From a virus, in IMG/VR virus record IMGVR_UViG_3300025093_001715, positions 1 through 29,268 of that record: 29,268 nt of DNA; one strand, given 5' to 3'. The notes beneath the pieces are model-generated. The model made no database searches and was not told where the DNA came from. It worked only from the letters and a program-made list of their open reading frames with translations. A program made the position numbers and the translations under genes. Positions 1,963 through 29,268 of this stretch are shown here, in pieces (the first letter of the stretch is position 1; each line of letters starts with the position of its first letter).

Positions 1963-2328
1963 TCAGATGTCGTTCGCCGGCGCTGTCGGCCTCGCGTTGC
2001 CGACCGGCAGGCGAATCGCCGGGTTGGGGCGGGCCGACGCCACGATCGTGCGGTCGATCGTCAGGCTGGCGACGAAGGTGTGGCCGCACTCGAGATCCGT
2101 GCACTGCAGGCGGAGCTCCTTGAACAAGGGCGTCAGCTCCTTGGAGCTGCGCACCTTGGCGGGTGCGCGACAGTGCGGGCATTTGGTCTGGATGTGGCTG
2201 CCGAAGCGCCGCCCGGGCTCCTTGAAGGCCGCGGGCTGGTGATCACTGGAGAACCTGCCACCGCTCGAGGCGGCCGCAGTGGGCGTGTCTTGCATGTTTG
2301 ACCCCGACTTTGCCCCTGCGCTTGTCAT
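1963..2328 (-). CDS. ogr: Ogr/Delta-type zinc-finger late-gene activator
   Basis: A 121-residue protein carrying the exact zinc-binding spacing C-x2-C-x22-C-x4-C seen in P2 Ogr and P4 Delta (CPHC ... CTDLEC), followed by GHTFVASLTIDRTI. Ogr proteins activate phage late promoters by binding a dyad element near -55 and contacting the RNA polymerase alpha subunit. The start at 2328 is chosen because GGAAGG lies 8 nt upstream. A later in-frame ATG at 2295 has no ribosome site but would still include the finger. An AT-rich stretch (CTTTTATTCT on the minus strand, 2360-2351) could be part of its own promoter, alongside read-through from D. It is the gene nearest the attachment site, as in P2, and it is the obvious regulator of the four 22-bp elements described below. 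Confidence 0.9.
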   Translation of the reverse strand: MTSAGAKSGSNMQDTPTAAASSGGRFSSDHQPAAFKEPGRRFGSHIQTKCPHCRAPAKVRSSKELTPLFKELRLQCTDLECGHTFVASLTIDRTIVASARPNPAIRLPVGNARPTAPANDI

Positions 2329-9486: not shown

Positions 9487-9852
9487 TCAGGCGGCGGACG
9501 AAGCGGGGCGGAGCGGATAGGCGAAGTCGAAGCCCTCGGGCCGGGGCAGATCCACGCGGCGGCCGAGGATGCGAAGATGAAGCGCGCCCGGGCGTGGCCG
9601 CTCGAGCGTCACCCGCGTCACCTGGACGCGAGGCTCCCACCTGAGGAGCGCCATGGCCGTCGCGGCATAGATGGCGAGACGGGTGCGGGGATTGTCGGGC
9701 TGGTCGACCAGATCCGGCAGGCGTGAGCCATACGGGCGAAGCATCACGCGGCTGCCCTCGGGCGTGGTCAGGATGTCGCCGATCGACTGCTCGAGGTGCG
9801 CGGCGCTGCGGCTGTCCAGGGTGCGGCCAGTGGTTCGGGACATGCCGGTCAT
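9487..9852 (-). CDS. W: gpW/gp25-like baseplate wedge protein
   Basis: A 121-residue baseplate wedge protein of the gpW/gp25 family, related to T4 gp25. Seen are the N-terminal helix AAHLEQSIGDILTTPEGSRV, the core MLRPYGSRLPDLVDQP, then AIYAATAMALLRWEPRV. The ATG at 9852 overlaps the V stop (GTATGA), so V and W are translationally coupled. In P2, W is followed by J; here it is followed by sheath FI, because the V-W pair has been relocated. Confidence 0.93.
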   Translation of the reverse strand: MTGMSRTTGRTLDSRSAAHLEQSIGDILTTPEGSRVMLRPYGSRLPDLVDQPDNPRTRLAIYAATAMALLRWEPRVQVTRVTLERPRPGALHLRILGRRVDLPRPEGFDFAYPLRPASSAA

Positions 9853-10454
9853 ACGGGCGCTCCCGTCTTGCCGGAGATCGTGCCACCGGTGTGGACGTGC
9901 GACTTGAGGCTCTTGGGTGCACCGGGGACGTCGACGACGACGTCTTCGGTAGCGGTCACCTTCTTGTCCACGGTGGCATTGCCGGTGATGGCGGTGTCGC
10001 CGTCGATGGAAACATTGCCGGTGATGGTGGTGTCGCCGATGATGGTGACGCCACCCGGGGCCGTCATGGTCACGCGGCCGGGCGTCTCGACCTGAAGGTG
10101 CTCTTCCTCCGGATCGTAAGAGACCTGGGCACCATCCCGGAAGCGGATGGCATTGGCCTGACCGAGGAACAGCGGCGCGAAGGCAGACGACGGCAGGCCG
10201 TTCAGCACCATGCCCTGCTCGATGTCGCCTTCGGGGGCGATCACCAGGACTTGCTGGCCGACCGTCGGCGGGATCCAGATGGTGGTGTCGCCGACCGGCA
10301 TCAGCCAGTCGATCGGCGGAGTGGTCTGTTCGCCCATTGCCACGACCACCTTGCCCGCCTCGAGGTCGATAGACTGGACGGTGCCGACGCGCAGGAGCGA
10401 CCCGATCAGACGATCGGAGTCGGCGGCCGGGCGTTGGAAAGCGGGGCGGGTCAT
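9849..10454 (-). CDS. V: gpV-like baseplate spike protein
   Basis: A 201-residue membrane-piercing spike. The N-terminal OB-fold part has GSLLRVGTVQSIDLEAGKV and a PTVGQQVLVIAPEGD stretch. It then changes into a beta-helix of TITGN/ISIDGD-like repeats (GDTTITGN, GDTAITGN), and ends with LKSHVHTGGTI, where HVH is the iron-binding apex motif of P2 gpV. I prefer the ATG at 10454 (TRPAFQRP) over one at 10487. The 22-bp late element at 10503-10524 predicts transcription starting around 10458, too late for the longer form. There is no ribosome-binding site, which fits a near-leaderless mRNA. Confidence 0.9.
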   Translation of the reverse strand: MTRPAFQRPAADSDRLIGSLLRVGTVQSIDLEAGKVVVAMGEQTTPPIDWLMPVGDTTIWIPPTVGQQVLVIAPEGDIEQGMVLNGLPSSAFAPLFLGQANAIRFRDGAQVSYDPEEEHLQVETPGRVTMTAPGGVTIIGDTTITGNVSIDGDTAITGNATVDKKVTATEDVVVDVPGAPKSLKSHVHTGGTISGKTGAPV

Positions 10455-10502
10455 AGGTTGCGGACGATGGCGCAGCGCGCGCAACATCGCAGGGGCGTGG
10501 TG

Positions 10503-10524
10503 TTGTCAGCACCGCACGGCACAA
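10503..10524 (-). promoter_or_regulatory. 22-bp late-activator (Ogr-type) element upstream of V
   Basis: One of four perfect copies of a 22-mer with TTGT...ACAA ends. On the V coding strand it reads TTGTGCCG...GCTGACAA. Thirty-two nt downstream (10470-10460) lies CCATCGTCCGC, which matches TTAGCGTCCGC at the same 32-nt distance in front of terminase P. With the activator centre at about -55, transcription would begin near 10458, 4 nt before the V ATG. Confidence 0.75.
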
Positions 10525-10531
10525 AAGGGCG

Positions 10532-11215
10532 TCAGCCGATGGCGGTCAGGCTTTCGTCCAGCTCGGGCCAGCTGATCGTGTGCGGGAAGCCACCCTGCTC
10601 AGGCACGTCGCGCAGGTCCTGAATGTAGCGCAGCACGGCCTGATAGTCCTCGGCCGTCAGCGTCGTGGTGATCCTCAGCGCCAGCTCGTCCCGGTGCCGG
10701 TCGATGATCCAGCGAACCCGGGTGATGCGGCGGGCCCGGTCGGACCTGACCGCCTGGGCCAGCAAAACCTCGTCGGGCTCGAGATCGGGATCATCGGCGC
10801 CAGAGGTGGCCGGGCGCACGTTCCAGACGCCATCCTCGAAGACGGCCTCCTCGTCGAAGCTGAAAGCAGGCGGCGCCACCGTGGTGGCGTTGGCAGGGAT
10901 CAGCCAGTGCTCGGGTCTCACCCGGGCGGCGGCTGCGGAGGCGTCGGCCAGAGCGGCGTCGCGGATCTGCATGGCCTGACCAATGGCGGCGTCCAGGTCC
11001 TGTTCGGCCTGGTCCAGCTGGTCGAGGGTTGTGCGCGGGGCATCGGCAAAATCCGACAGCGCCTGCTGGTATGCGGCCGAATAGGCCTCACGCGCCGCAG
11101 CGGCCAGCGGATCGTGGGCAGCTTGCCGCGCCAGCTCGAGCTCCATGGGATCGGCCTCGGCCATACCGGCGCCGCGATACAGGCCTGTAGCGGGGTCGTA
11201 GTGGTAGATGAGCAT
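10532..11215 (-). CDS. tail fibre assembly chaperone (G position)
   Basis: A 227-residue protein directly downstream of the tail fibre gene. The N-terminus (MLIYHYDPATGLYRGAGMAE) and VFEDGVWNVRPA resemble tail fibre assembly proteins. The C-terminal part has IDRHRDELALRITTTLTAEDY, YIQDLRDVPEQGGFP and ISWPEL, the pattern of phage tail assembly chaperones of the Caudo_TAP type. The middle is a long Ala-rich helix. Such proteins fold or trimerise the distal fibre and are often exchanged together with it. It ends just before the V late element. Confidence 0.8.
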   Translation of the reverse strand: MLIYHYDPATGLYRGAGMAEADPMELELARQAAHDPLAAAAREAYSAAYQQALSDFADAPRTTLDQLDQAEQDLDAAIGQAMQIRDAALADASAAAARVRPEHWLIPANATTVAPPAFSFDEEAVFEDGVWNVRPATSGADDPDLEPDEVLLAQAVRSDRARRITRVRWIIDRHRDELALRITTTLTAEDYQAVLRYIQDLRDVPEQGGFPHTISWPELDESLTAIG

Positions 11216-11223
11216 GGCGCGCC

Positions 11224-13953
11224 TCAGTAAGAGATACAGGCCAGAAGGGCCTCGTTGACCGGGCGGGCTTCGCTGCCGCCCTCATATCCGGTGAAGACCG
11301 TCCGGACGACGCCGCCGGAGTCGGTGTCCTCGACGTAGCCCTCATCCGTTCCGTTTGAGCTGCGGGTCGGGACCGAGTGACGGTGCGACAGGTTCTGGCT
11401 GGCCTGATAGGTGCCGGTGCTCAGAGCACGGCCTGCGTCGAGGCCGCGTCCGTTGTCCAGGCCTCGGAAGAAGACGCCCCGCCAGTCGGGGATCTGGAAG
11501 GTGGTCGCGCCGTCGCCTGCGCCATATCGGGTGCCGATGGCGGCGAACAGACGGGCATAGGTGGTGCGCGACACGACCGCACCATTGGCGACGAGGCAGC
11601 GGTTGCCTGCCGGAACTGCCGCCATGTCGAACAGGTGCAGCTTTCCAGCGGGCCAGACGAGGTCGAGCAGGTCCGTGATCTTGGACGCCGTCAGGTTCGG
11701 GATGCGCGCGACGTCGAAGGTGCCACTGGTCGTCTGACTGGCCGGGATGTTCGGGAGCCGGGCCAGCGGCACGGTGCCCGAGGTGATGTCGGCCCCGGAA
11801 TGGGCGTGCCCGGTATCGGACTTGCCCGCCAGCGCGGCGACGAGGCCGGTGATGGCCGACATTGCCAAGGCCGGGATCCGGGCAGCATCGAAGACGCCGC
11901 TGTTCGTCTGGCTGGCCGGGATGTTCGGGAGCCGAGCCAGCGGCACGGTGCCGGAGGTGATGTCCGTACCCGAGTGAGCGTGCCCGGTGTCCGACTTGCC
12001 TGCCAAGGCGGCGACCAGACCTGTGATAGCCGACATGGCCAGCGCCGGGATCCGGGCAGGATCGAAGACGCCGCTGTTCGTCTGGCTGGCCGGGATGTTC
12101 GGGAGCCGCGCCAGCGGCACGGTGCCGGAGGTGATGTCCGCACCCGAGTGAGCGTGCCCGGTGTCCGACTTGCCTGCCAAGGCGGCGACCAGACCTGTGA
12201 TAGCCGACATGGCCAGCGCCGGGATCCGGGCAGGATCGAAGACGCCGCTGTTCGTCTGGCTGGCCGGGATGTTCGGGAGCCGCGCCAGCGGCACGGTGCC
12301 GGAGGTGATGTCCGCACCCGAGTGAGCGTGCCCGGTGTCCGACTTGCCTGCCAAGGCGGCGACCAGACCTGTGATAGCCGACATGGCCAGCGCCGGGATC
12401 CGGGCAGGATCGAAGACGCCGCTGTTCGTCTGGCTGGCCGGGAGGTTCGGGAGCCGCGCCAGCGGCACCGTGCCCGAGGTGATATCCTCGCCCGCATGGT
12501 TGTGGGCGGCATTTGCCTTTGACGCCGGATCGAAATTGCCACTGTCCCAGAACTTGCGCCAGCCAGACCAGACCCCCGCGAGCGCCCCCCGATGGAATAC
12601 ATCCCCGCTGGACGGGCGCGTATAGCGCTGCTCGATCTGGTCGCCCTGGGCCAGCACCTCGATCATGCCTGCAGCCCCGACCGGGTAGTTGGTTCCGTCC
12701 GTCGCGCCAGCGTCCAGAGGCTGGCGGTAGAAGCCCGGTGTCACACACAGGTTGAGATCAGAGCCCGAGGTGCCGAGCGAGCTGACGAACTGAAGAAGGA
12801 CCGGCTTGCCCGTCACCTGGGCCCAGTCATGCGAGTGCAAGGCGTCGGCCTTGGTGGCCGGGTCGAAATTGCCGGCATGCCAGAGCGGGTTCCCGGCCCA
12901 GGCCGCATAGGTCGAATAGACCCTCAGCGCATTGGTCTCGCTGTGCCCGAGGCTGTTGGAAATGGCCATATAGCCGAAGGAGGGCCCGGTCGAACCGCCC
13001 TGGCTGCCGAAGTGGAAGCGGGCACTCTCGTTCGTACCCGCCCCGATACTGAAAGTTCGAACCCAACCACCCGGCCCGGCCGCGCCCTGCGCGGCCGACA
13101 TGCTGAGGCCCGTGGTGATTGTCTCGAGGAAAGTCGAGGTGCCTGAAACTTTGGGGAGATAGCCCGCGAGGGCTGTGGCCAGTCCGGTGATCTTGGCCAT
13201 AGCCAGATCGGGGATCCGCAAGACGTTGAAGACGCCGGTCGTGACATGGCCAGCATCATGATTGTGTGCCGTGTCCGCCTTACCCGCCAGAGCCGTCGCC
13301 AGACCCGTGATCTTGGCCATGGCCAGGTCAGGGATCCGCAGGACGTTGAAGACGCCGGTCGTGACGTGGCCCGCATCATGGTTGTGGGCGGCGTCGGCCT
13401 TGGTCCCAAGCAGGGAGGTGAGCAACACCTTGAGCCGGGACGGGACGACTGCGACATCGGAGCGGATGCCCGCGTCCGTCTCGGACTGATCAGCGAGTTC
13501 GACCACGCCCGGGCGGTCGACCGTCGCCGGCGGATTGATGAAGTCGGTGTTGCCGAATTCGATCATAGCCGTGGTCAGGCTGGCGAGGACGACGTCAACC
13601 GCCAGCAGCATCATGGAGGCTGCGGACTTCTGGACGATCGGCGCCGCTTGTCCGTAGACGGCAAACAGGGTGCCATCCGAGAGGATCAGGCCGAAGCCGC
13701 GTAGATTGTAGACCTGGGTGGATTCATCCCGGATCGTCAGGTGCAGGGTGTCATCCGCGACGACATCGCCAGCGAAGGTGCCAAGCCGCTTGAGCTCGCT
13801 GGGGAGTGCAGTCATGGCGGCAAAGTCGGAGCCAGTCAGATTGGCCGAGGTCAGGGCCACCTGGCTGATCGTCAGCGCGGTGGTGCCCATGTTCTGGGCA
13901 TTGATCAGGGCGGCGCGCCCGGCATTGGTGATGGTGATCGGCAATCCGGGCAT
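11224..13953 (-). CDS. H: gpH-like tail fibre protein
   Basis: A 909-residue receptor-binding fibre. The N-terminal 160 residues (ITITNAGRAALINAQNMGTTAL ... PPATVDRPGVVELAD) are the P2-type attachment domain. The shaft is made of tandem repeats carrying H-x-H motifs (AHNHD, LHSHD, GHAHSG), which in other fibres bind metal ions on the trimer axis. The C-terminus has a tail-collar domain (YGAGDGATTFQIPDWRGVFF) and ends in RPVNEALLACISY. The start overlaps the I stop (TGATG). The shaft contains 174-bp and 120-bp DNA repeats, listed separately. The collar type of C-terminus suggests a fibre whose host range could change by exchange at this end. Confidence 0.93.
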   Translation of the reverse strand: MPGLPITITNAGRAALINAQNMGTTALTISQVALTSANLTGSDFAAMTALPSELKRLGTFAGDVVADDTLHLTIRDESTQVYNLRGFGLILSDGTLFAVYGQAAPIVQKSAASMMLLAVDVVLASLTTAMIEFGNTDFINPPATVDRPGVVELADQSETDAGIRSDVAVVPSRLKVLLTSLLGTKADAAHNHDAGHVTTGVFNVLRIPDLAMAKITGLATALAGKADTAHNHDAGHVTTGVFNVLRIPDLAMAKITGLATALAGYLPKVSGTSTFLETITTGLSMSAAQGAAGPGGWVRTFSIGAGTNESARFHFGSQGGSTGPSFGYMAISNSLGHSETNALRVYSTYAAWAGNPLWHAGNFDPATKADALHSHDWAQVTGKPVLLQFVSSLGTSGSDLNLCVTPGFYRQPLDAGATDGTNYPVGAAGMIEVLAQGDQIEQRYTRPSSGDVFHRGALAGVWSGWRKFWDSGNFDPASKANAAHNHAGEDITSGTVPLARLPNLPASQTNSGVFDPARIPALAMSAITGLVAALAGKSDTGHAHSGADITSGTVPLARLPNIPASQTNSGVFDPARIPALAMSAITGLVAALAGKSDTGHAHSGADITSGTVPLARLPNIPASQTNSGVFDPARIPALAMSAITGLVAALAGKSDTGHAHSGTDITSGTVPLARLPNIPASQTNSGVFDAARIPALAMSAITGLVAALAGKSDTGHAHSGADITSGTVPLARLPNIPASQTTSGTFDVARIPNLTASKITDLLDLVWPAGKLHLFDMAAVPAGNRCLVANGAVVSRTTYARLFAAIGTRYGAGDGATTFQIPDWRGVFFRGLDNGRGLDAGRALSTGTYQASQNLSHRHSVPTRSSNGTDEGYVEDTDSGGVVRTVFTGYEGGSEARPVNEALLACISY
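11986..12442 (-). repeat. 174-bp tandem direct repeat in the tail fibre gene
   Basis: A 174-bp unit (58 codons; motif SDTGHAHSGADITSGTVPLA) starts at 11986, 12160 and 12334. The first two units appear base-for-base identical. The third is identical to them for about 110 bp, until the first mismatch near 12443. More diverged copies continue on both sides (about 11700-11985 and 12443-12510). The length is a multiple of three, so gain or loss keeps the frame. Confidence 0.92.
13189..13410 (-). repeat. 120-bp tandem direct repeat in the proximal fibre shaft
   Basis: Two copies of a 120-bp unit (40 codons; GHVTTGVFNVLRIPDLAMAK in both). The shared landmark ATCTTGGCCAT occurs at 13190 and 13310 on the plus strand. 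The copies are roughly 90 percent identical by eye. They are related in pattern (K-x-D-x-x-H-x-H and AxxxITGLxxALA) to the 174-bp repeats further along. Confidence 0.88.
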
Positions 13954-14513
13954 CAGGCGGCCTCAAGCTGCAGGCGGACAAAGTCGGCGGCGCGCACGGC
14001 GGCGGCGAGGCCGAGACCGCCCTGGGCCGCGAGGCCCTGGGTGAAGGTGAAATGGGCGCGCACTGGCTTGGTCCGGGCGACCTCGTCGATGACCTCCTCG
14101 ACGAACCGGGCCGTGGCCGGCTGGCCGCCCTCCCCGTTCAGGGTCAGCACCAGGTCGAAGGTGTAGGGGTCGCCCGGAGGGTCCTGTTGCCACCATTCCC
14201 GCAGGGCGATCTGACCGCCGAATGCCGCGACGACCTGGCGGACTGAGCCGGCCGTGCCCTTCTTGCGCTGGATCTCGATGGCGGCCGCAACCACGTTGCG
14301 CTTGACGCCTTCCGGCCAGGTCGGATTCCAGCTGTCGATCGACAGCGCATAGGCCAGCCAGGGCAGGAGCTCGATCGGGCAGGTGTCGGGTCGCCAGAGA
14401 TCCCGGAGCGGAACCGGCACGGCATCAAGGCGGCGCGTCAGACGCTCCACCGCGAGCTCGAGCGCAGTGGAGTTCTCGGGTGCCAAGCACTGGCTGTCGC
14501 GGACCAGGGGCAT
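13953..14513 (-). CDS. I: gpI-like baseplate/tail protein
   Basis: A 186-residue P2 gpI family protein, a baseplate wedge component that connects the wedge to the tail fibres. Diagnostic parts are DLWRPDTCPIELLPWLAYAL and SIDSWNPTWPEGVKR, then EIQRKKGTAGSVRQVVAAFG, all conserved in the family. The stop overlaps the fibre start (TGATG), and the start lies right behind J. Confidence 0.94.
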   Translation of the reverse strand: MPLVRDSQCLAPENSTALELAVERLTRRLDAVPVPLRDLWRPDTCPIELLPWLAYALSIDSWNPTWPEGVKRNVVAAAIEIQRKKGTAGSVRQVVAAFGGQIALREWWQQDPPGDPYTFDLVLTLNGEGGQPATARFVEEVIDEVARTKPVRAHFTFTQGLAAQGGLGLAAAVRAADFVRLQLEAA

Positions 14514-14515
14514 GG

Positions 14516-15457
14516 CTATTCCCCGAGGCCGGCGTGGGTGACGTCGATCGACGTGCAGCGGGCCGCCTGGGTACGGGTAACAACGACATTGGCCGCGGGA
14601 GAAATCAGGTCGACGTCCTGGACGCCCTCGGGGGAAAGAGCGGCGATGATCCCGGATCGAGTGACGTCGCGGCCGAGCCGGAAGCAGGCAGCCAGATAGG
14701 CATCGAGACGGGCCAGCGCTTCCGACACCACGACCGAGGCGTCCGGCCCCGCGAAGGTGGTCAGGGTGGCTTCGACCCCGAACGTCAGCACCTGGGCTGC
14801 GGCAACGGTCACCTGATCGGTCAGGGGGCGGACGTCCTCGGCCGAGACATAGGCCTCGACCGTGTCGAGCAGGGCCTGATCCGGCACACCATTGCCGAGG
14901 CGGGACAGGACCGTGACCAGCACCTCACCGGGCGACGGGCTGGTGGCGCTGGCGTCCAGGACATCACCGGACGCGTCGAGAGCCTTGGACACATAGGCGC
15001 CCTCGGGCCCGGCCACGGAATAGGCCTCAGGCGCCAGCAGCGCGCGCCGGCGCAAGGCATCGTCGTCTTCCATGACGGCCGGGACGAGGCCGTCGCCGGA
15101 CGCCGGCACAATGACCAGACGCTCCACGCCGAGCAGGGCGACCAGGTGGTCGAGGTCGGACCCCACGGCATAGGCGATCGTGACGGCCCGGGCAGCATCG
15201 TTGACCCGCTGGCGCAGGCCCAGCTCGCGATAGGCGAAGATCTGGATGATTTTGACGAGCGGCTCGGACGGCAGGGCCAGCACCTGGGCCATCGCGGCGC
15301 CCGCCTCCGGGCTGTCCTCGGCCATGGCGTCGATCAGCAGCTGCCTGGCCTCGGCCACGATGGCGTCGAAGGACAGGGCCTCGACGACTTTCGGGAAGGG
15401 CAGCTTGGACAGGTTGACGGCAGTCGAGCCGCTGGCCTGGCCGGCGAGGACGGACAC
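14516..15457 (-). CDS. J: gpJ-like baseplate wedge protein
   Basis: A 313-residue baseplate J family protein that forms the wedge ring and triggers sheath contraction. Recognisable are the early VNLSKLPFPKVVEALSFDAI segment, LRQRVNDAARAVTIAYAVGSDLD, LRRRALLAPEAYSVAGPEGAY and the C-terminal EGVQDVDLISP. The start is GTG at 15457, preceded by GAGG about 9 nt upstream. It is the first gene after a 22-bp late element (15531-15552), so J-I-H-G should be a late operon of its own. Confidence 0.94.
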   Translation of the reverse strand: MSVLAGQASGSTAVNLSKLPFPKVVEALSFDAIVAEARQLLIDAMAEDSPEAGAAMAQVLALPSEPLVKIIQIFAYRELGLRQRVNDAARAVTIAYAVGSDLDHLVALLGVERLVIVPASGDGLVPAVMEDDDALRRRALLAPEAYSVAGPEGAYVSKALDASGDVLDASATSPSPGEVLVTVLSRLGNGVPDQALLDTVEAYVSAEDVRPLTDQVTVAAAQVLTFGVEATLTTFAGPDASVVVSEALARLDAYLAACFRLGRDVTRSGIIAALSPEGVQDVDLISPAANVVVTRTQAARCTSIDVTHAGLGE

Positions 15458-15530
15458 GGACGGAAACCTCTAGGTCACAAGCGGGCCTCCGTTGTCACCG
15501 CCCGAGCGTCTCGCTGGCGACCGAGGGCTG

Positions 15531-15552
15531 TTGTGCCGTGCGGTGCTGACAA
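15531..15552 (-). promoter_or_regulatory. 22-bp late-activator (Ogr-type) element upstream of J
   Basis: A perfect copy of the 22-mer. On the J coding strand it is in the inverse orientation (TTGTCAGC...CGGCACAA) to that at V. After a 31-nt spacer the coding strand has GGTGAC (15499-15494), similar to GGTGAT in front of O and TGTGAT in front of the methyltransferase gene. Predicted transcription starts near 15486, giving a leader of about 30 nt before the GTG. It begins one base after the stop of the preceding accessory gene. Confidence 0.75.
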
Positions 15553-15553
15553 A

Positions 15554-22907: not shown

Positions 22908-23816
22908 TCAGCAGTCGGCCAGCTGGCTGCCGGTTTCGCTGCCCGTGGCGGCGGGGCGCTGCGAATAGCCCGGCGACGGGGTGTTCTCGATCGTCGCCTT
23001 CATGCCGGCGAACTCGCTCTGCAGGCGGGTCATTTCGGCGCGGTGTTGGGTGGCCAAGGCCTCGCGATCGGCCTTCATGGCCGCGGCCATGTCAGCGAAC
23101 AGACCGGTGAAGCCCTGGATCATGGCGGCGTTCGGATCAGCTGGCGGGGTTTCCGGCTGTTGCGTCGCGGGCTGCTCGGGCTTCTTGCCATCCAGCAAGG
23201 CCGAGAACTTGGCCAGCACCTTGTCCAAGGCGGACTCGGTCGAGGCGTTCGGCGCGGCCTCGAACTCGATGGTGGTCTCGATCAGGGCCGAGAAGAGGCT
23301 GGTCGTGTGCTGTTTGCGCGCATCGAGGACGGCCTTCAGCTGCTTGGCGAAGTCATTGTCGGCCTTGGCCGTGAACTTCAGGGCCTCGGTGCCCAGGCTG
23401 GCCGGGTTATCGGTGACTGCCAGGCCCATCAGGTAGCATTTGCCGGTGCCGGCGAAGTTGGGCTCGATCTCGATCGAGGTGTAGATCTTCTGGCGGGCCC
23501 GGTTGAACTTGACCAGCTGATCGGTCGGGTCGACCTGGGCATAGAGCGCCAGCCGGGTTTGATCCTTGTCGTCGATCTTCAGCGTGACTTCTTCGGTCCG
23601 GACCGCCAGGACGTCGCCATAGGCGATGAAGGGGCCCTCGGCCGAGAAGCCCTTGATGTGCTCCATGTTGACCCGGGCGCCGAAGGTGGCCGGATTATAG
23701 CTGGCGGCCATCTCGAGTAGCCAGTTGCGCTCGATGGTGCGACCGTCCGAAGCGGTGGCCCCCTCGACGGCAACGCGGAACCATTTAGACTTCGGGGTGG
23801 CGGTCGTATCGGACAT
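22908..23816 (-). CDS. O: gpO-like capsid scaffold and maturation protease
   Basis: A 302-residue scaffold with an N-terminal serine protease and a C-terminal scaffolding coiled coil. Putative catalytic residues line up with P2 gpO: Asp24 (ASDGR), His53 (NMEHIKGF) and Ser114 (KIYTSIE). A Pro/Gln-rich linker (about 215-230) leads to a helical scaffold ending (TRLQSEFAGMKATIENTPSP). The start at 23816 is preferred over an upstream ATG because homology begins there and an AGG precedes it. O is the first gene of the leftward capsid operon, driven from the element shared with P. Confidence 0.94.
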   Translation of the reverse strand: MSDTTATPKSKWFRVAVEGATASDGRTIERNWLLEMAASYNPATFGARVNMEHIKGFSAEGPFIAYGDVLAVRTEEVTLKIDDKDQTRLALYAQVDPTDQLVKFNRARQKIYTSIEIEPNFAGTGKCYLMGLAVTDNPASLGTEALKFTAKADNDFAKQLKAVLDARKQHTTSLFSALIETTIEFEAAPNASTESALDKVLAKFSALLDGKKPEQPATQQPETPPADPNAAMIQGFTGLFADMAAAMKADREALATQHRAEMTRLQSEFAGMKATIENTPSPGYSQRPAATGSETGSQLADC

Positions 23817-23915
23817 CGGGGCCTCGGGTGATGGGCGTTCGAAGCGCCGGATGCGGCGCGGACTGATCGAGGCGCAGATCACCGCGTCGGGGGGCGCAAT
23901 CTCAAGCTGGGGCTG

Positions 23916-23937
23916 TTGTGCCGTGCGGTGCTGACAA
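23916..23937. promoter_or_regulatory. 22-bp late-activator (Ogr-type) element shared by O and P
   Basis: A perfect 22-mer lying between the divergent scaffold and terminase genes. Toward P (plus strand) it reads TTGTGCCG...GCTGACAA, and a 32-nt spacer leads to TTAGCGTCCGC (23970-23980), 4 nt before the ATG. Toward O it reads in the other orientation, and a 32-nt spacer leads to GGTGAT (23883-23878). A single dyad could therefore activate two divergent promoters. The six bases before it (GGGCTG) also match the J copy. Confidence 0.78.
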
Positions 23938-23984
23938 CAGGGGGGCGAAGGGCCGTCGCGCGCGCGCGGTTAGCGTCCGCCCCG

Positions 23985-25919
23985 ATGAAACAGCGACCCA
24001 CCAAAGCGGAAGGCACCTCAGCGAAGCGCGCTACCGCTCCGCTGCTTGAGCGCGGCGACGGCGGTACCGACGACCTGGGGGCGATGCTGGCTGCGAACAG
24101 CGGATTTGGGTTTCCGGTTGCGGCCATGCTGGATGCGCGACGCGCGGCCAAGTTCCTCTATTGGGCCTGCTGGCGGCTGTGTGACATCGCCGAGCTGATG
24201 GGCGTGCCGGAAGGCACGATCGCCAGCTGGAAAGCGCGCGAGGAATGGGAGAAGGCCACCCCGCTCGAACGCATGGAGGGGGTGACCGAGGCCCGCTACA
24301 TCGCCGTCGCCATGAAGGACCGCAAGTCCGGCCTGGACTTCAAGGAGCTGGACCTGCTGGGCCGCCAGGCCGAGCGGTTCGCCCGGGTCCGCAAATACGA
24401 GGCAGGCGGCAATGAAGCCGACCTGAATCCCAAGGTCGCCAACCGCAACGCCGGGCCAAAGAAGAAGCCGTCCCGGAACCGGATCACGCCGGACCAGGCC
24501 GAGATCCTGAAGGCGCGGTTCCTCGAGATCCTGTTCGACTATCAGGCGGTCTGGTGGTCGAAGCGGGAGCTGCGCAGCCGCAACATCCTGAAGAGCCGGC
24601 AGATCGGGGCGTCATACTATTTCGCGCTCGAGAAGCTGATCGTCGCGCTCGAGACCGGCAAGAACCAGATCTGGCTGTCGGCCTCAAAGAGCCAAGCGCA
24701 CATCGCCCGCGGCTATGTCCGGGCGTTTGTCATGGAGACGATCGGGGTCGAGCTGAGCGGCGATCCGATCCTGATCGATCGGGGCGAGGATGATGACGGG
24801 CGGCCGCTGGAGCAGCCGACTCTCTATTACCTGGGCACCAATGCGCGGACGGCGCAGGGCTATCACGGCGACTTCTACTTCGACGAATATTTCTGGGTCT
24901 TTGGCTTCCAGGTGCTGAAGAAGGTCGCCTCGGGCATGGCGATGCAGAAGCGGTACCGGAAGACATTCTTCTCGGCGCCGAGTTCGGTCACGCACGAGGC
25001 CTATCAGTTCTGGACGGGTCAGGAGTGGAACAAGAAGCGCGCGAAGGATCGCCGCATCGACTTCGACACCAGCTGGAAGGCGACCAAGGATGGGCTGTTG
25101 CTGCCCGACCGGATCTGGCGCCAGACCGTCACGATCGAGGACGCCGAGCGCGGCGGCAACGACCTGTTCGACCTGGAGGACCTGCGCGACGAGTATTCGG
25201 CGCCGGAATTCGCCAACCTGCTGATGTGCCAGTTCGTCGACGACACCCTGTCGGTGTTCCCGATGACGATCCTGACGCCGTGCATGGTCGACGAGCAGGA
25301 GGTCTGGCCCGACGTCGACCATGTGCGGATCACCCTGGGCTTTGGCAAGCCCTATGACGGCGAGGTCTGGCTGTCATACGATCCGAACGGGGATGGCGAG
25401 AACGCCGACGCCGCGGGCCTGATCGTGCTGGCGCCGCCGAGAACGCCCGGCGGCAAGTTCCGCGTGCTGGAGCGTCGGCAGTTCAAGGGCAGCGACTTCA
25501 CCGAGCAGGCCGAGGTGATCCGCGAATATACCAAGCGCTACAACGTCACCAAGATCGACATCGACAAGACAGGCATCGGCAATGCGGTCTTCCAGCTGGT
25601 GCGGACCTTCTTCCCGCGCGCGACCGGCCATCAGTACGACGCCTTTGTGAAGACCCAGATGGTCTACAAGGCCCTGGACGTCGTCACCAAGCACCGCATC
25701 GAGATCCCGGCTGGCTTTACCGACCTGCTCGGCGCGCTGATGGCGATCCGGCGGACCATGACGGCATCGGGCCGGCACGTGACCTATGAAGCCAGCCGCA
25801 CCAAGAACAGCGGGCACGCCGACCTGGCCTGGGCCCTGTTCCAATCCCTGATCAATGAACCCATCGAAGCCGCCATTGGAGGCGGCTCGAGCTCTCGCGT
25901 GGTGATCTCTGATGACTAG
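23985..25919 (+). CDS. P: gpP-like terminase large subunit ATPase
   Basis: A 644-residue packaging ATPase of the P2 gpP family. Residues 63-88 form a helix-turn-helix (IAELMGVPEGTIASWKAREE). The ATPase has the adenine-side/Walker A region SRQIGASYYFA (204-214) and Walker B FYFDEYFW (297-304). The C-terminal nuclease-like part contains LSYDPNGDGENADAAGL and KIDIDKTGIGNAV. I start at ATG 23985. A TTG 69 nt upstream would translate the late element itself and is rejected. No ribosome-binding site precedes the ATG. Confidence 0.95.
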   Translation: MKQRPTKAEGTSAKRATAPLLERGDGGTDDLGAMLAANSGFGFPVAAMLDARRAAKFLYWACWRLCDIAELMGVPEGTIASWKAREEWEKATPLERMEGVTEARYIAVAMKDRKSGLDFKELDLLGRQAERFARVRKYEAGGNEADLNPKVANRNAGPKKKPSRNRITPDQAEILKARFLEILFDYQAVWWSKRELRSRNILKSRQIGASYYFALEKLIVALETGKNQIWLSASKSQAHIARGYVRAFVMETIGVELSGDPILIDRGEDDDGRPLEQPTLYYLGTNARTAQGYHGDFYFDEYFWVFGFQVLKKVASGMAMQKRYRKTFFSAPSSVTHEAYQFWTGQEWNKKRAKDRRIDFDTSWKATKDGLLLPDRIWRQTVTIEDAERGGNDLFDLEDLRDEYSAPEFANLLMCQFVDDTLSVFPMTILTPCMVDEQEVWPDVDHVRITLGFGKPYDGEVWLSYDPNGDGENADAAGLIVLAPPRTPGGKFRVLERRQFKGSDFTEQAEVIREYTKRYNVTKIDIDKTGIGNAVFQLVRTFFPRATGHQYDAFVKTQMVYKALDVVTKHRIEIPAGFTDLLGALMAIRRTMTASGRHVTYEASRTKNSGHADLAWALFQSLINEPIEAAIGGGSSSRVVISDD

Positions 25920-27057
25920 CCCCCTGCCCCGTGCCCGCCAGCTGGCCCGCGCCCGTGCCCGTAGCGGCGTCGACGCCATCCCGCGCGAAGAGCGCGGCGA
26001 ACTGTCGATGGCCGCGCGCATGTCGCTGGACCCGTCACCCGGGCCAGCTCTCGGCCTCGAGGCCTCGACCGCCACGGCAACCGCCTTCGCCATCGGCGAT
26101 CCTGAGCCGGTGCTGAACCGGCGCGACCTGATCGAGTGCCTGGACTGCTGGGAGGTTTCGGGCGTCGGCGGTCGCTACTATCAGCCGCCGATAGATCAGG
26201 CGGTGCTGTCGCGCGCGATGAATGTGACGTCGCACCATGCCAGCGCGTTCCGGGTGAAGATCAACCAGTTGGTCCGCGACTTCATTCCGCACCCGATGCT
26301 TAATCTCGAGACGTTCGAGGGCCTGGCGCTCGATTATCTGGTCATGGGGCAGTGCTACGTCGAGCAGGTGACCAATCTGGTCAATCGGCCGATGGCGCTG
26401 CGCCGCAGCCTGGCCAAATACACCCGCCGCGGCGTCGAGCCCGGGGCGTTCGTCTTCCTGTCGGCCTATATGAAGGAGCACTGGTTCCGGAAGGGCGCTG
26501 TGCTGCAGCTGATGCAGCCCAGCCTGGATCAGGAGATCTATGGCGTGCCCGACTATCTGAGCGCCCTGCAGTCGGCCTTCCTGAATGAGGCGGCGACTCT
26601 GTTCCGGCGCCGGTATTATATCTCGGGCGCCCATGCCGGCTTCATCCTTTACGTCGGCGAAGGCGGGCTGAGCGATGCCGACGCCGATGCGATCCAGGAA
26701 GCCGTCCGAAGCACGAAGGGCGTTGGGAATTTCCGCTCGCTGTTCATCCACCTGCCGAACGGCAAGAAGGACTCGATCCAGATCCTTCACCCGGGCGAGG
26801 CGGCCGCGAAGGATGAGTTCGTCGGCATCAAGAACGCCACACGCGATGATGTGCTGGCCGCGCACCGCGTGCCGCCCCAGCTGCTGGGGGTGATCCCGCA
26901 GACGGCAGGCGGGTTCGGCGACGTCGAGAAGGCCGAGGCCGTGTTTCACCAGGCCGAGATCATCCCGCTGAAGATGCGGCTTGGGGCGATCAATGACTGG
27001 CTGGGGATACGCGTGGTCGATTTCCGGGAACGGTCCGAGCCGAGGCGCGAGATCTAA
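25912..27057 (+). CDS. Q: gpQ-like portal protein
   Basis: A 381-residue P2-type portal that forms the dodecameric DNA entry ring. Landmarks are LEVSG-like DCWEVSGVGGRYYQPPI, LDYLVMGQCYVEQVTN, the EHWFRKGAVLQLMQPSLDQE region, EIYGVPDYLSALQSAFLNEA and DVLAAHRVPPQLLGVIPQTA. The ATG overlaps the terminase stop by 8 nt. Its stop (27055-27057) overlaps the stop of a convergent small repressor gene by 3 nt. Confidence 0.95.
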   Translation: MTSPLPRARQLARARARSGVDAIPREERGELSMAARMSLDPSPGPALGLEASTATATAFAIGDPEPVLNRRDLIECLDCWEVSGVGGRYYQPPIDQAVLSRAMNVTSHHASAFRVKINQLVRDFIPHPMLNLETFEGLALDYLVMGQCYVEQVTNLVNRPMALRRSLAKYTRRGVEPGAFVFLSAYMKEHWFRKGAVLQLMQPSLDQEIYGVPDYLSALQSAFLNEAATLFRRRYYISGAHAGFILYVGEGGLSDADADAIQEAVRSTKGVGNFRSLFIHLPNGKKDSIQILHPGEAAAKDEFVGIKNATRDDVLAAHRVPPQLLGVIPQTAGGFGDVEKAEAVFHQAEIIPLKMRLGAINDWLGIRVVDFRERSEPRREI

Positions 27058-27230
27058 GCGTCAGGATCGAGCATGCCCATTCCGGCCAGCGCCTCTGCAG
27101 CCAAGATGCGGAGCGCTTCCGGACGGCTAATGCCCGGTCGCTCTTCCACGATGAAGCGGTCAACGGCAGCCATCAGGGCCGGCGGCACCTTGACCATCAC
27201 TGCTGTCGATCCGATCGGCGGACGCCCCAT
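27054..27230 (-). CDS. ribbon-helix-helix (CopG/Arc-type) DNA-binding protein
   Basis: A 58-residue protein with a beta strand (TAVMVKVPPALMAAVDRFIV) followed by ERPGISRPEALRILAAEALA, the standard strand-helix-turn-helix layout of ribbon-helix-helix dimers. The start at 27230 is the ATG directly touching a 16-bp palindromic operator; an earlier frame would read through that operator and is rejected. It has no ribosome site and may be leaderless. Its gene is antisense to, and abuts, the Q gene end. It probably represses itself and the divergent pair at 27350-28242. Confidence 0.8.
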   Translation of the reverse strand: MGRPPIGSTAVMVKVPPALMAAVDRFIVEERPGISRPEALRILAAEALAGMGMLDPDA

Positions 27231-27231
27231 A

Positions 27232-27247
27232 TAACCGATATCCGTTA
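27232..27247. promoter_or_regulatory. operator 1, GATATC-centred dyad
   Basis: TAACCGATATCCGTTA is an imperfect palindrome with only one mismatched pair position, centred on GATATC. It lies immediately before the repressor ATG and ends where the TTGACA -35 box (27248) of the rightward promoter begins. Confidence 0.65.
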
Positions 27248-27276
27248 TTGACAGTCGAAAGCGTAATGGATATCGG
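27248..27276 (+). promoter_or_regulatory. sigma70-type promoter for the 27350-28242 genes
   Basis: A consensus TTGACA (27248-27253), a 17-nt spacer, then TATCGG (27271-27276) as a weak -10. It is flanked on the left by operator 1 and overlapped at the -10 by operator 2, so a repressor bound at both would block it. Confidence 0.5.
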
Positions 27277-27279
27277 ATA
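27264..27279. promoter_or_regulatory. operator 2, GATATC-centred dyad
   Basis: TAATGGATATCGGATA; its reverse complement matches operator 1 at 14 of 16 positions. The centre lies 32 bp from that of operator 1, about three helical turns, so both face the same side of the DNA and could be bound cooperatively. Confidence 0.6.
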
Positions 27280-27284
27280 AGGCA

Positions 27285-27316
27285 GGCTGGAGCAAGGCGG
27301 CAACCTCGCTCCAGCC
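27285..27316 (+). other. stable hairpin in the leader of the small exported-protein gene
   Basis: GGCTGGAGC (27285-27293) pairs perfectly with GCTCCAGCC (27308-27316). After one A-C mismatch, AGG/CCT extends the stem to a 6-nt loop. It starts within a few bases of the expected transcript 5' end and has no T tract after it, so it is more likely a 5' leader structure than a terminator. Confidence 0.55.
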
Positions 27317-27349
27317 CTGACCTGAACCTTCGATCCATAGGAAATCGAC

Positions 27350-27553
27350 ATGGCACAAGCTGGACGAACCAATACCACACGACGCATGGTCTTGGGCAGC
27401 CTGTTGGGAGCGCCCGTTGCTATCACCGTCCCGACCCCAGCATCGACCCAGTGCGCAATGCCCCAGCTGCCCGAAGGATTCATATGGGTGAGCGTGCGCG
27501 AGACGTCGTGGAACGCGCTGCTTGAAGCGGCGCATGGACTACAAAAGCTCTGA
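27350..27553 (+). CDS. small protein with a twin-arginine-like signal
   Basis: A 67-residue protein. Its N-terminus (TTRRMVLGSLLGAPVAITVP) looks like a short twin-arginine or Sec signal, with paired arginines followed by a hydrophobic stretch and then PTPAST. The remaining 35 residues (PEGFIWVSVRETSWNALLEA) show no known domain. AGGAAA precedes the ATG by about 7 nt, and its stop overlaps the next start as TGATG, so the pair is co-translated. Function unknown. Confidence 0.6.
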   Translation: MAQAGRTNTTRRMVLGSLLGAPVAITVPTPASTQCAMPQLPEGFIWVSVRETSWNALLEAAHGLQKL

Positions 27554-28242
27554 TGGCGACAAAGCCGATCCCTACGGGCGCTAGGTTTGGGCGACTTACA
27601 TTCGTCGAGCGCTGCGCCTCACTGAAAGGCGAGTCGCGCGGCCTGTTTCGGTGTGACTGCGGCCAGTCCAAAGAGATTAATCTCGCCAGCGTCAGATCCG
27701 GACGATCAAAGAGTTGCGGATGCGGACACCTTGACGGCTTCCGTTCCCGTCGACGAAATCTTGAGGGGCAGCGCTTTGGTCGCTTGGTGGCGATCTCGGC
27801 CTTCGATCCAGGTCAGTTTGCGCGAACGATGTGGCGATGCCGATGCGACTGCGGCAATCCGACGATCGTCCAAACACAGAACCTCCTATCCGGCCACACC
27901 ACCAGTTGCGGATGTGCAAAGGTCGAACATACACCGGCGAACAAGACACACGGTCGGTCAATGGAACGAGGCAAGTACCTCACCTATCGAAGCTGGCAGT
28001 CCATGATCGCCCGCTGCGAAAATCCGAGGACGACGCGCTTCGAATGCTGGGGTGGCCGTGGCATCAAGGTATGTGACCGGTGGCGCCATAGTTTTCGCTC
28101 GTTCGTTGAAGACATGGGCGAGCGTCCGCGAGGCCTCACGCTGGACCGGGACAATAATGACGGCGACTACGAGCCCGGCAACTGTCGCTGGGCCACGCCG
28201 AAGGAGCAGGCGGCGAATAGGCGGCGGCGCGGTAAGAAGTGA
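27553..28242 (+). CDS. zinc-cluster, HNH-related phage protein
   Basis: A 229-residue protein with two copies of a small module: GxRFGRL at 9-15 and 73-78, CDCG at 34-37 and 98-101, and SCGC at 54-57 and 118-121. Each probably binds zinc and DNA. The C-terminal 95 residues have RSWQSMIARCENPRT, WGGRGIKVCDRW, a DMGERPRGLTLDRDNNDGDY segment and EPGNCRWAT. This is the pattern of a group of phage-encoded HNH/AP2-like DNA-binding proteins that often behave as mobile endonucleases. Nuclease activity is not certain because the core His is not obvious. It is co-translated with the gene before it and ends 1 nt before a late element. Confidence 0.75.
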   Translation: MATKPIPTGARFGRLTFVERCASLKGESRGLFRCDCGQSKEINLASVRSGRSKSCGCGHLDGFRSRRRNLEGQRFGRLVAISAFDPGQFARTMWRCRCDCGNPTIVQTQNLLSGHTTSCGCAKVEHTPANKTHGRSMERGKYLTYRSWQSMIARCENPRTTRFECWGGRGIKVCDRWRHSFRSFVEDMGERPRGLTLDRDNNDGDYEPGNCRWATPKEQAANRRRRGKK

Positions 28243-28243
28243 T

Positions 28244-28265
28244 TTGTCAGCACCGCACGGCACAA
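28244..28265 (+). promoter_or_regulatory. 22-bp late-activator (Ogr-type) element upstream of the methyltransferase
   Basis: The fourth perfect copy, in the orientation seen for J and O (TTGTCAGC...CGGCACAA toward the plus strand). A 30-nt spacer leads to TGTGAT (28296-28301), like the GGTGAT/GGTGAC of O and J. Expected transcription start near 28309, running rightward to the D12 methyltransferase; no leftward gene lies in reach. Confidence 0.68.
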
Positions 28266-28437: not shown

Positions 28438-29268
28438 GTGATTGAGTCGCTTGTGAACGCAACAACCCACCTGCCCGTGAACCCTGTTTCCCCGGTTGCC
28501 GCCTATATCGGCGGCAAGCGCAATCTGGCGCGGCGTCTGTGCGCGCTGATCGAGGCCACGCCCCATGAAGCCTATGCCGAAGCCTTTGTCGGCATGGGTG
28601 GTGTCTTCTTTCGTCGGCGTAGCCGACCGAAGTGCGAGATCATCAATGACCTGTCGGGTGAGGTCGCGAACCTGTTCCGCTGCATGCGGGCGCACCCGGG
28701 CGCGCTGTGTGACCTGATCAGCCTGCAGCTGCAGTGCCGTGCCGATTTTGACCACCAGCAGCGGGTGGACCCGACGCAGCTGACGGATCTGCAGCGGGCC
28801 GCGCGGTTTGTGTTCCTGCAGAAGGTGGCGTTCGGCGGCAAGGTGACCGGCCAGGACTTTGGCATGTGCCGTGATCGGGCCAGCCGATTCCAGGCGTCAA
28901 AGGTCGGGGCCGACCTGATGGCGGCGGGCCGTCGCCTCGAGACCGTGGTCATCGAGCAGCTGACCTGGTCGGACTTCGTGCGCCGCTATGACCGGCCGGG
29001 GATGCTCTTCTATCTGGACCCGCCGTATTTCGACTGTGAGGGCGACTATGGGCCCGGCATGTTCGACCAGGGCCAGTTCGAGCTGATGGCCGAGCAGCTG
29101 GCCGGGATCCGGGGCCGGTTCATCCTGTCGCTTAATGACAGGCCGGAGGTGCGCCGGATCTTCGGCCGGTTCAACATCGAGGGCGTGGGCACCCACTACA
29201 GCCTGCAGGGCAAGGGCGCGAAGCCAGCGGGTGAGGTGATCATCACGGGCGGGGGCTCTCGCCCCTGA
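28438..29268 (+). CDS. D12-class DNA adenine methyltransferase
   Basis: A 276-residue adenine-N6 DNA methyltransferase of the Dam/D12 class. YIGGKRN at 23-29 and AEAFVGMGG (48-56, cofactor site) are followed by IINDLSGEVANLFR, a target-recognition region, and the catalytic DPPY at 194-197. LSLNDRPEVRRIF and HYSLQGKGAKPAGEVII complete the C-terminus. The class often methylates GATC, but the target is not readable here. The start is GTG at 28438, with a GTG at 28453 as alternative. No strong ribosome site is seen. It ends at the last base of the window. A phage copy may protect its DNA from restriction or alter regulation. Confidence 0.9.
   Translation: MIESLVNATTHLPVNPVSPVAAYIGGKRNLARRLCALIEATPHEAYAEAFVGMGGVFFRRRSRPKCEIINDLSGEVANLFRCMRAHPGALCDLISLQLQCRADFDHQQRVDPTQLTDLQRAARFVFLQKVAFGGKVTGQDFGMCRDRASRFQASKVGADLMAAGRRLETVVIEQLTWSDFVRRYDRPGMLFYLDPPYFDCEGDYGPGMFDQGQFELMAEQLAGIRGRFILSLNDRPEVRRIFGRFNIEGVGTHYSLQGKGAKPAGEVIITGGGSRP

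Follow-up and report, generated by a model that had tools for sequence, protein, structure and literature searches.

The 22-bp element that occurs four times in the virus record analyzed here is very probably the operator for this phage's own Ogr-type late activator, and none of the other readings weighed below comes near to this one. The stretch under study, referred to as the window, is the 29,268-base record IMGVR_UViG_3300025093_001715. A first-pass annotation had proposed an Ogr-type late regulon, and comparative sequence analysis supports this part of its reading well: ogr follows D, the sites stand at the starts of late operons, and six phage lineages share the arrangement, each with a private allele of the site. 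The accompanying idea, that the orientation of the site chooses the core promoter, did not hold.

Results

The left end of the window is host-like, with tRNA-Asp and an AbgT transporter gene. It is followed by ogr, D, U, T, E, FII, FI and V, then by a tail-fibre assembly gene, H, I, J, a 226-aa cargo gene and lysis and head genes, with O, P, Q, an HNH endonuclease gene and a D12 methyltransferase gene at the right. The prophage carries the P2-like (Peduovirus-type) module Q-P-O-N-M-L ... J-I-H-G, V ... D-ogr (Table 1). Its ogr gene has the same position relative to D as in P2, and the product has a CX2CX22CX4C zinc finger, the cysteine motif of an Ogr-dependent late regulon; this protein is the likely binder of the 22-mers. 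Tail fibre protein H has an internal repeat in about four near-identical copies (GKSDTGHAHSGADITSGTVPLARLPN...). The cargo gene, which adjoins the J site, is kept at 88-99% identity in some close relatives, while others have something else there.

Table 1. Features of the window. The strand of a 22-mer copy is the one on which it reads TTGTGCC...TGACAA; plus-signed distances are counted in bases past the site.
Feature	Position	Strand	Remarks
Copy 1 of the 22-mer	10503..10524	-	Upstream of V operon (V, FI, FII, E, T, U, D, ogr); TTGTGCC toward V
Copy 2 of the 22-mer	15531..15552	+	Upstream of J operon (J, I, H, G); TTGTCAG toward J
Copy 3 of the 22-mer	23916..23937	+	One predicted operator common to divergent P/Q and O-N-M-L operons
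Copy 4 of the 22-mer	28244..28265	-	Upstream of D12 methyltransferase; TTGTCAG toward methyltransferase
ogr	1963..2328	-	121-aa Ogr/Delta activator; PF04606, E 1.9e-17; phrog_603
V (baseplate spike)	9849..10454	-	ATG at +49 past copy 1
V core promoter element CGCCATCGTCCGC	10460..10472	-	+31 to +43; GCCATCGTCCG identical in a1-a3, degenerate in a4-a6
H (tail fibre)	11224-13953		
J (baseplate)	14516..15457	-	
J core GGTGAC (within CGGTGACAACG)	15494..15499	-	+32 to +37; also in a2
226-aa cargo gene	15554-16234		
O (scaffold/protease)	22908..23882	-	Internal ATG is the likely start
O core GGTGAT	23878..23883	-	+33 to +38; kept in a1, a2, a3, a5
TTGAGA, possible -35-like element of O promoter	23900..23905	-	+11; TTGAGA in five lineages, TTGCGA in a6
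P core promoter element GGTTAGCGTCCGC	23968..23980	+	+31 to +43 past site; kept as TAGCGTCCG in 6/6 lineages
P (terminase ATPase)	23985..25919	+	ATG at +48 past copy 3
Q (portal)	25912..27057	+	
D12 DNA adenine methyltransferase gene	28438..29268	+	Downstream of copy 4

The four copies, beginning at 10503, 15531, 23916 and 28244 as first reported, agree at 22/22 bases. Each is intergenic (between G and V, before J, in the gap between O and P, and before the D12 methyltransferase gene), which bears out their assignment to late-operon starts. No further copy within 3 mismatches was found in the window, and the 22-mer was recovered 0 times from 100 dinucleotide shuffles of it; chance predicts none. 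The description of the element as a dyad applies to the TTGT and ACAA arms and to the central CG, whereas the other bases of the inner 14 bp are not symmetric.

That a dyad precedes the P, O and V (and J) late operons is what is expected of a regulon of the P2 type. The P2 promoters PP, PO, PV and PF likewise form a common late regulon, with a zinc-finger activator gene after D and a dyad before the P, O and V operons. The P2 site is TGT-N12-ACA, whereas that of the window is TTGT-N14-ACAA with all copies identical at 22 bases; in addition, the window operons are split as J-I-H-G and V...D-ogr, and there is an extra copy at the methyltransferase gene. The canonical TGT-N12-ACA spacing was not found in any of the six lineages, all of which have N14. 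Since spacing varies among P2-like phages, we regard the window site as a variant rather than as the P2 consensus itself. Stenotrophomonas phage Smp131 has the operon layout of the window, with PP' and PO' on one dyad listed in both orientations, plus PJ' and PV'; its sites are described as similar to TGT-N12-ACA (PMC3931495). Ralstonia phages phiRSY1 and phiRSA1 resemble the window phage in having four late regions and TTGT/ACAA-type arms (TGTTGT-N13-ACAACA, with no sigma-70 promoter), but their spacing is 13 rather than 14 and their inner bases are not reported as fixed (PMC5694545).

Viral contigs contain the exact 22-mer in 35 stretches; of 84,980 GTDB species genomes, 1 contains it, that of Brevundimonas sp. 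A19_0. It is not common in a host: sequences within 3 mismatches number exactly four in the whole A19_0 genome, and a single prophage contains all of them, at the same four positions as in the window. In the annotated carriers (about a dozen records) the site is at V, J, P/O or the methyltransferase gene; others were placed by the similarity of their flanks to those of the window sites.

Six related phage lineages, a1 being that of the window and nearly all being of Brevundimonas, share the placement of sites at V, J and P/O. A search of Brevundimonas and Caulobacteraceae genomes and viral contigs gave five alleles beyond that of the window: a2, TTGTGCGGTGCGGTCCTGACAA; a3, TTGTGCGGGGCGGACCTGACAA; a4, TTGTGCGGGGCGGTTCTTACAA; a5, TTGTGCCGGGTGGACCTGACAA; and a6, TTGTGCGGTGCGGCCCTGACAA. 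All six alleles conform to TTGT-N14-ACAA. Each phage repeats its own allele unchanged in 3 to 5 copies at V, J and P/O; exceptions to this identity are, in a2, some methyltransferase copies and extra copies before R, and a6 has additional copies at two sites between Q and the methyltransferase gene. The extra a2 site before R (L155:14514, L153:4173) again has an ATG at +46, and R therefore seems to have its own late promoter in that lineage. The P proteins of the lineages are 60-75% identical to P of the window, and Ogr is 42-72% identical between lineages. Position 9 of the site is T where Ogr has a CX4C finger (a1, a2, a6) and G where it has CX8C (a3, a4, a5). This correlation is suggestive; shared ancestry alone could explain it, because there are only two clades. 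Viral contigs also contain P2-like relatives at a greater distance (terminase about 53% identical); these have repeated dyads of their own, several of them N13, e.g., TTGTAAGAGGGGATGCTACAA.

These distributions bear on the possibility that the 22-mer is bound by some other phage or host regulator, such as a repressor, a nucleoid protein or a host activator, and that its placement at late promoters is coincidental. Sporadic solo copies in Brevundimonas chromosomes (see below) would fit such a regulator. However, the prophage-bearing host genome has no copy outside its prophage, 124/131 Brevundimonas genomes have no site within 2 mismatches, the alleles are private to each phage as expected for a phage-encoded reader, and the positions agree with known P2-like late promoters. 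We consider this alternative very improbable.

Conservation around the sites is uneven. Among window-type phages the site is 98.7-100% identical per position class, vs. 33-92% for the 20-bp flanks, and over 20 bp one flank is unrelated between phages at the J (45%) and methyltransferase (33%) sites. Over 50 bp this one-sided identity is 41% at J and 33% at the methyltransferase site, while the V and P/O flanks are conserved. The variable flanks mark cargo boundaries. They could also indicate that the element is mainly a site of recombination or cargo exchange, kept identical by gene conversion and only secondarily a promoter component, as could the 448-bp accessory insertion of G048, which has a copy near one end. 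Such a role is very improbable given the conserved V and P/O flanks, the fixed spacing to core elements and start codons, the mixed orientation of the copies and the lack of any recombinase linked to the site.

To compare the promoters, 80 bases past each site were aligned across the six lineages. The downstream words first noted in the window are present: past the sites of P and V, A-x-CGTCCGC occupies +35 to +43, and for J, O and the methyltransferase gene [GT]GTGA[CT] begins at +31 to +33. Sorted by gene, the cores are TAGCGTCCG for P, GCCATCGTCCG for V, CGGTGATCTG for O, together with TTGAGA at +11, and CGG[TC]GACAACG for J in a1 and a2. The proposal that a promoter is of one core class or the other according to which way its 22-mer points is true as a correlation for the five promoters inside the window, but it is almost certainly wrong, because flips of the site leave the cores unchanged: the J site reads TTGTCAG in the window lineage and TTGTGC toward J in a2, yet the J core is the same in both and is not CGTCCGC, and G123 has a flipped P/O site, yet keeps TAGCGTCCG at P and CGGTGATCTG at O. 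As far as these alignments go, the core promoter belongs to the gene and not to the orientation of its site.

When cores were scored with a position matrix, leaving out one lineage at a time, against chromosomal controls, V, P, most O cores and the J cores of 4/6 lineages were above the control 95th percentile; the methyltransferase cores were weak, as were J and O in some lineages. The V, P and J start codons lie +46 to +49 past the site in 17/18 cases, the exception being J of the window lineage. No Shine-Dalgarno sequence was seen at the V start in the window. A -10-like element at +31 to +37 and an ATG at +46 to +49 fit a transcript start near +44. The Ogr sites of P2 are centred near -55 from the transcript start; with the same geometry, transcription would begin near +44, leaving little or no leader. 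This suggests leaderless late mRNAs for P and V, plus J in the other lineages. In Caulobacter, a member of the same family, 375 leaderless mRNAs have been described (PMC4117421).

Single sites away from P2-like genes were found with strict patterns, for which a reversed-pattern control gave no matches; we read these strict solo copies as real and probably responsive to Ogr. At an orthologous locus of G024 and G081, the solo site is followed after 71 nt by a 183-aa gene of unknown function and is flanked on its opposite side by a Gp49-type (HigB-like) toxin and an HTH antitoxin. In G048, the site lies in the insertion mentioned above, which is located by guaB (L162:1628-2076), also has a 77-aa ORF, and is absent in 28 other species. 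The first of two solo sites in G052 is 66 nt before a 73-aa gene. Among 388 genomes, homologues of this small-gene cassette with the same leader occur in G056 and G012 only, and both have TTGT...ACAA in the corresponding position (N14 and N13, respectively), the G012 cassette having been located by protein similarity and not via its site. In the three Brevundimonas species, the gene for the small protein, which is about 66-73 aa long in G052 and G012, has the leader GAGCATC-AT-CTTTCTTTTG-A-GGAG (L134, L237, L254), and a TTGT...ACAA dyad is found upstream of it in each (N14, N14 and N13). The G012 site, TTGTCAGATCGCATCCGACAA (N13), has no second copy in 131 Brevundimonas genomes and is therefore not tied to a phage. 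In G394, an exact a6 site (L252:15117-15138) lies 17 nt before an excisionase-integrase (xis-int) pair; translations of the capsid, protease, portal and terminase genes at its left end indicate that G394 is apparently an HK97-type temperate phage. Single 1-mismatch matches to the loosest pattern in G037, G051, G122 and G125 were discarded, being at the level of the reversed-pattern control (6 matches); the G056 site was retained because its cassette is homologous. Viral records G395 and G398 have single loose-pattern matches. Core-promoter scoring of the solo sites was weak (best p 0.04, at hicA), and the small proteins matched no family in Pfam or PADLOC and had no convincing PHROG assignment.

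The second G052 solo site, TTGTGCGGTGCGGTCGTGACAA (L159:1501-1522; C6:50348), lies in the gap that separates an antitoxin-like DUF1902 gene from a HicA toxin gene, with HicA about 68 nt downstream. We compared this gap across about 30 hicA loci in Brevundimonas species (L259-L288). In some pairs it is 31-52% identical where both genes are 87-91% identical, with a shuffled baseline of 46%; in other pairs it is 84-100% identical. The gap looks modular, with unrelated stretches between near-identical genes, some of them with dyads or repeated motifs. The G087 and G114 gaps have N13 dyads, TGTTGTTTCCGG-N7-ACAACA, which were not found repeated, as a phage site would be, in any Brevundimonas genome; nine viral contigs have a loose match to them. 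It is suggestive that these dyads may be Ogr-type sites. A second motif, GTGCGTTGAG, is present in the hicA gaps of many species (L260-L278) and also beside the G024, G081 and G394 solo sites (L132 around 1490; L252).

Discussion

From these comparisons we infer Ogr binding, activation and transcript starts about 44 nt past the site. As the phage enters the lytic phase, Ogr would be made and would bind TTGT-N14-ACAA. By bringing host RNA polymerase to the weak core promoters that lie about 31-43 bp past the site edge, it would turn on the V, J, P/Q, O and methyltransferase operons as a set. The site would be active in either orientation, and a single copy would drive the divergent P and O promoters; by comparison, the flipped sites point to operator function regardless of orientation. 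Some observations count against the operator reading. The inner asymmetric bases are near-perfectly identical, a degree of constancy that recognition of a simple dyad should not require; the N14 spacing is unlike that of P2 (N12) and phiRSY1 (N13); and the cores at J, at the methyltransferase gene and, in some lineages, at O have low scores.

The solo sites may be promoters responsive to a phage's Ogr, perhaps with a role in defence. There is a precedent for Ogr action on genes outside a P2-like phage, since the late genes of satellite P4 are driven by P2 Ogr or by P4's own Delta (PMC8628076). P4 differs in being a satellite with its own Delta, whereas the solo sites are in chromosomes and an HK97-type phage. 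We tentatively entertain the possibility that Brevundimonas chromosomes and an unrelated HK97-type temperate phage have placed copies of the private late operators of P2-like phages before genes of their own (the HicA toxin gene, the small-protein cassette and xis-int), such that the Ogr of an infecting phage would trigger toxin, defence or excision, with the stretch between DUF1902 and HicA serving as a swappable sensor module. No description of a late-activator trigger for toxin or defence genes was found in the literature searched.

The lineages described here, each with an invariant operator and its own Ogr, constitute a natural data set for the DNA code of Ogr/Delta zinc fingers. Functional solo sites would mean that bacteria and competing phages eavesdrop on a phage's late activator.
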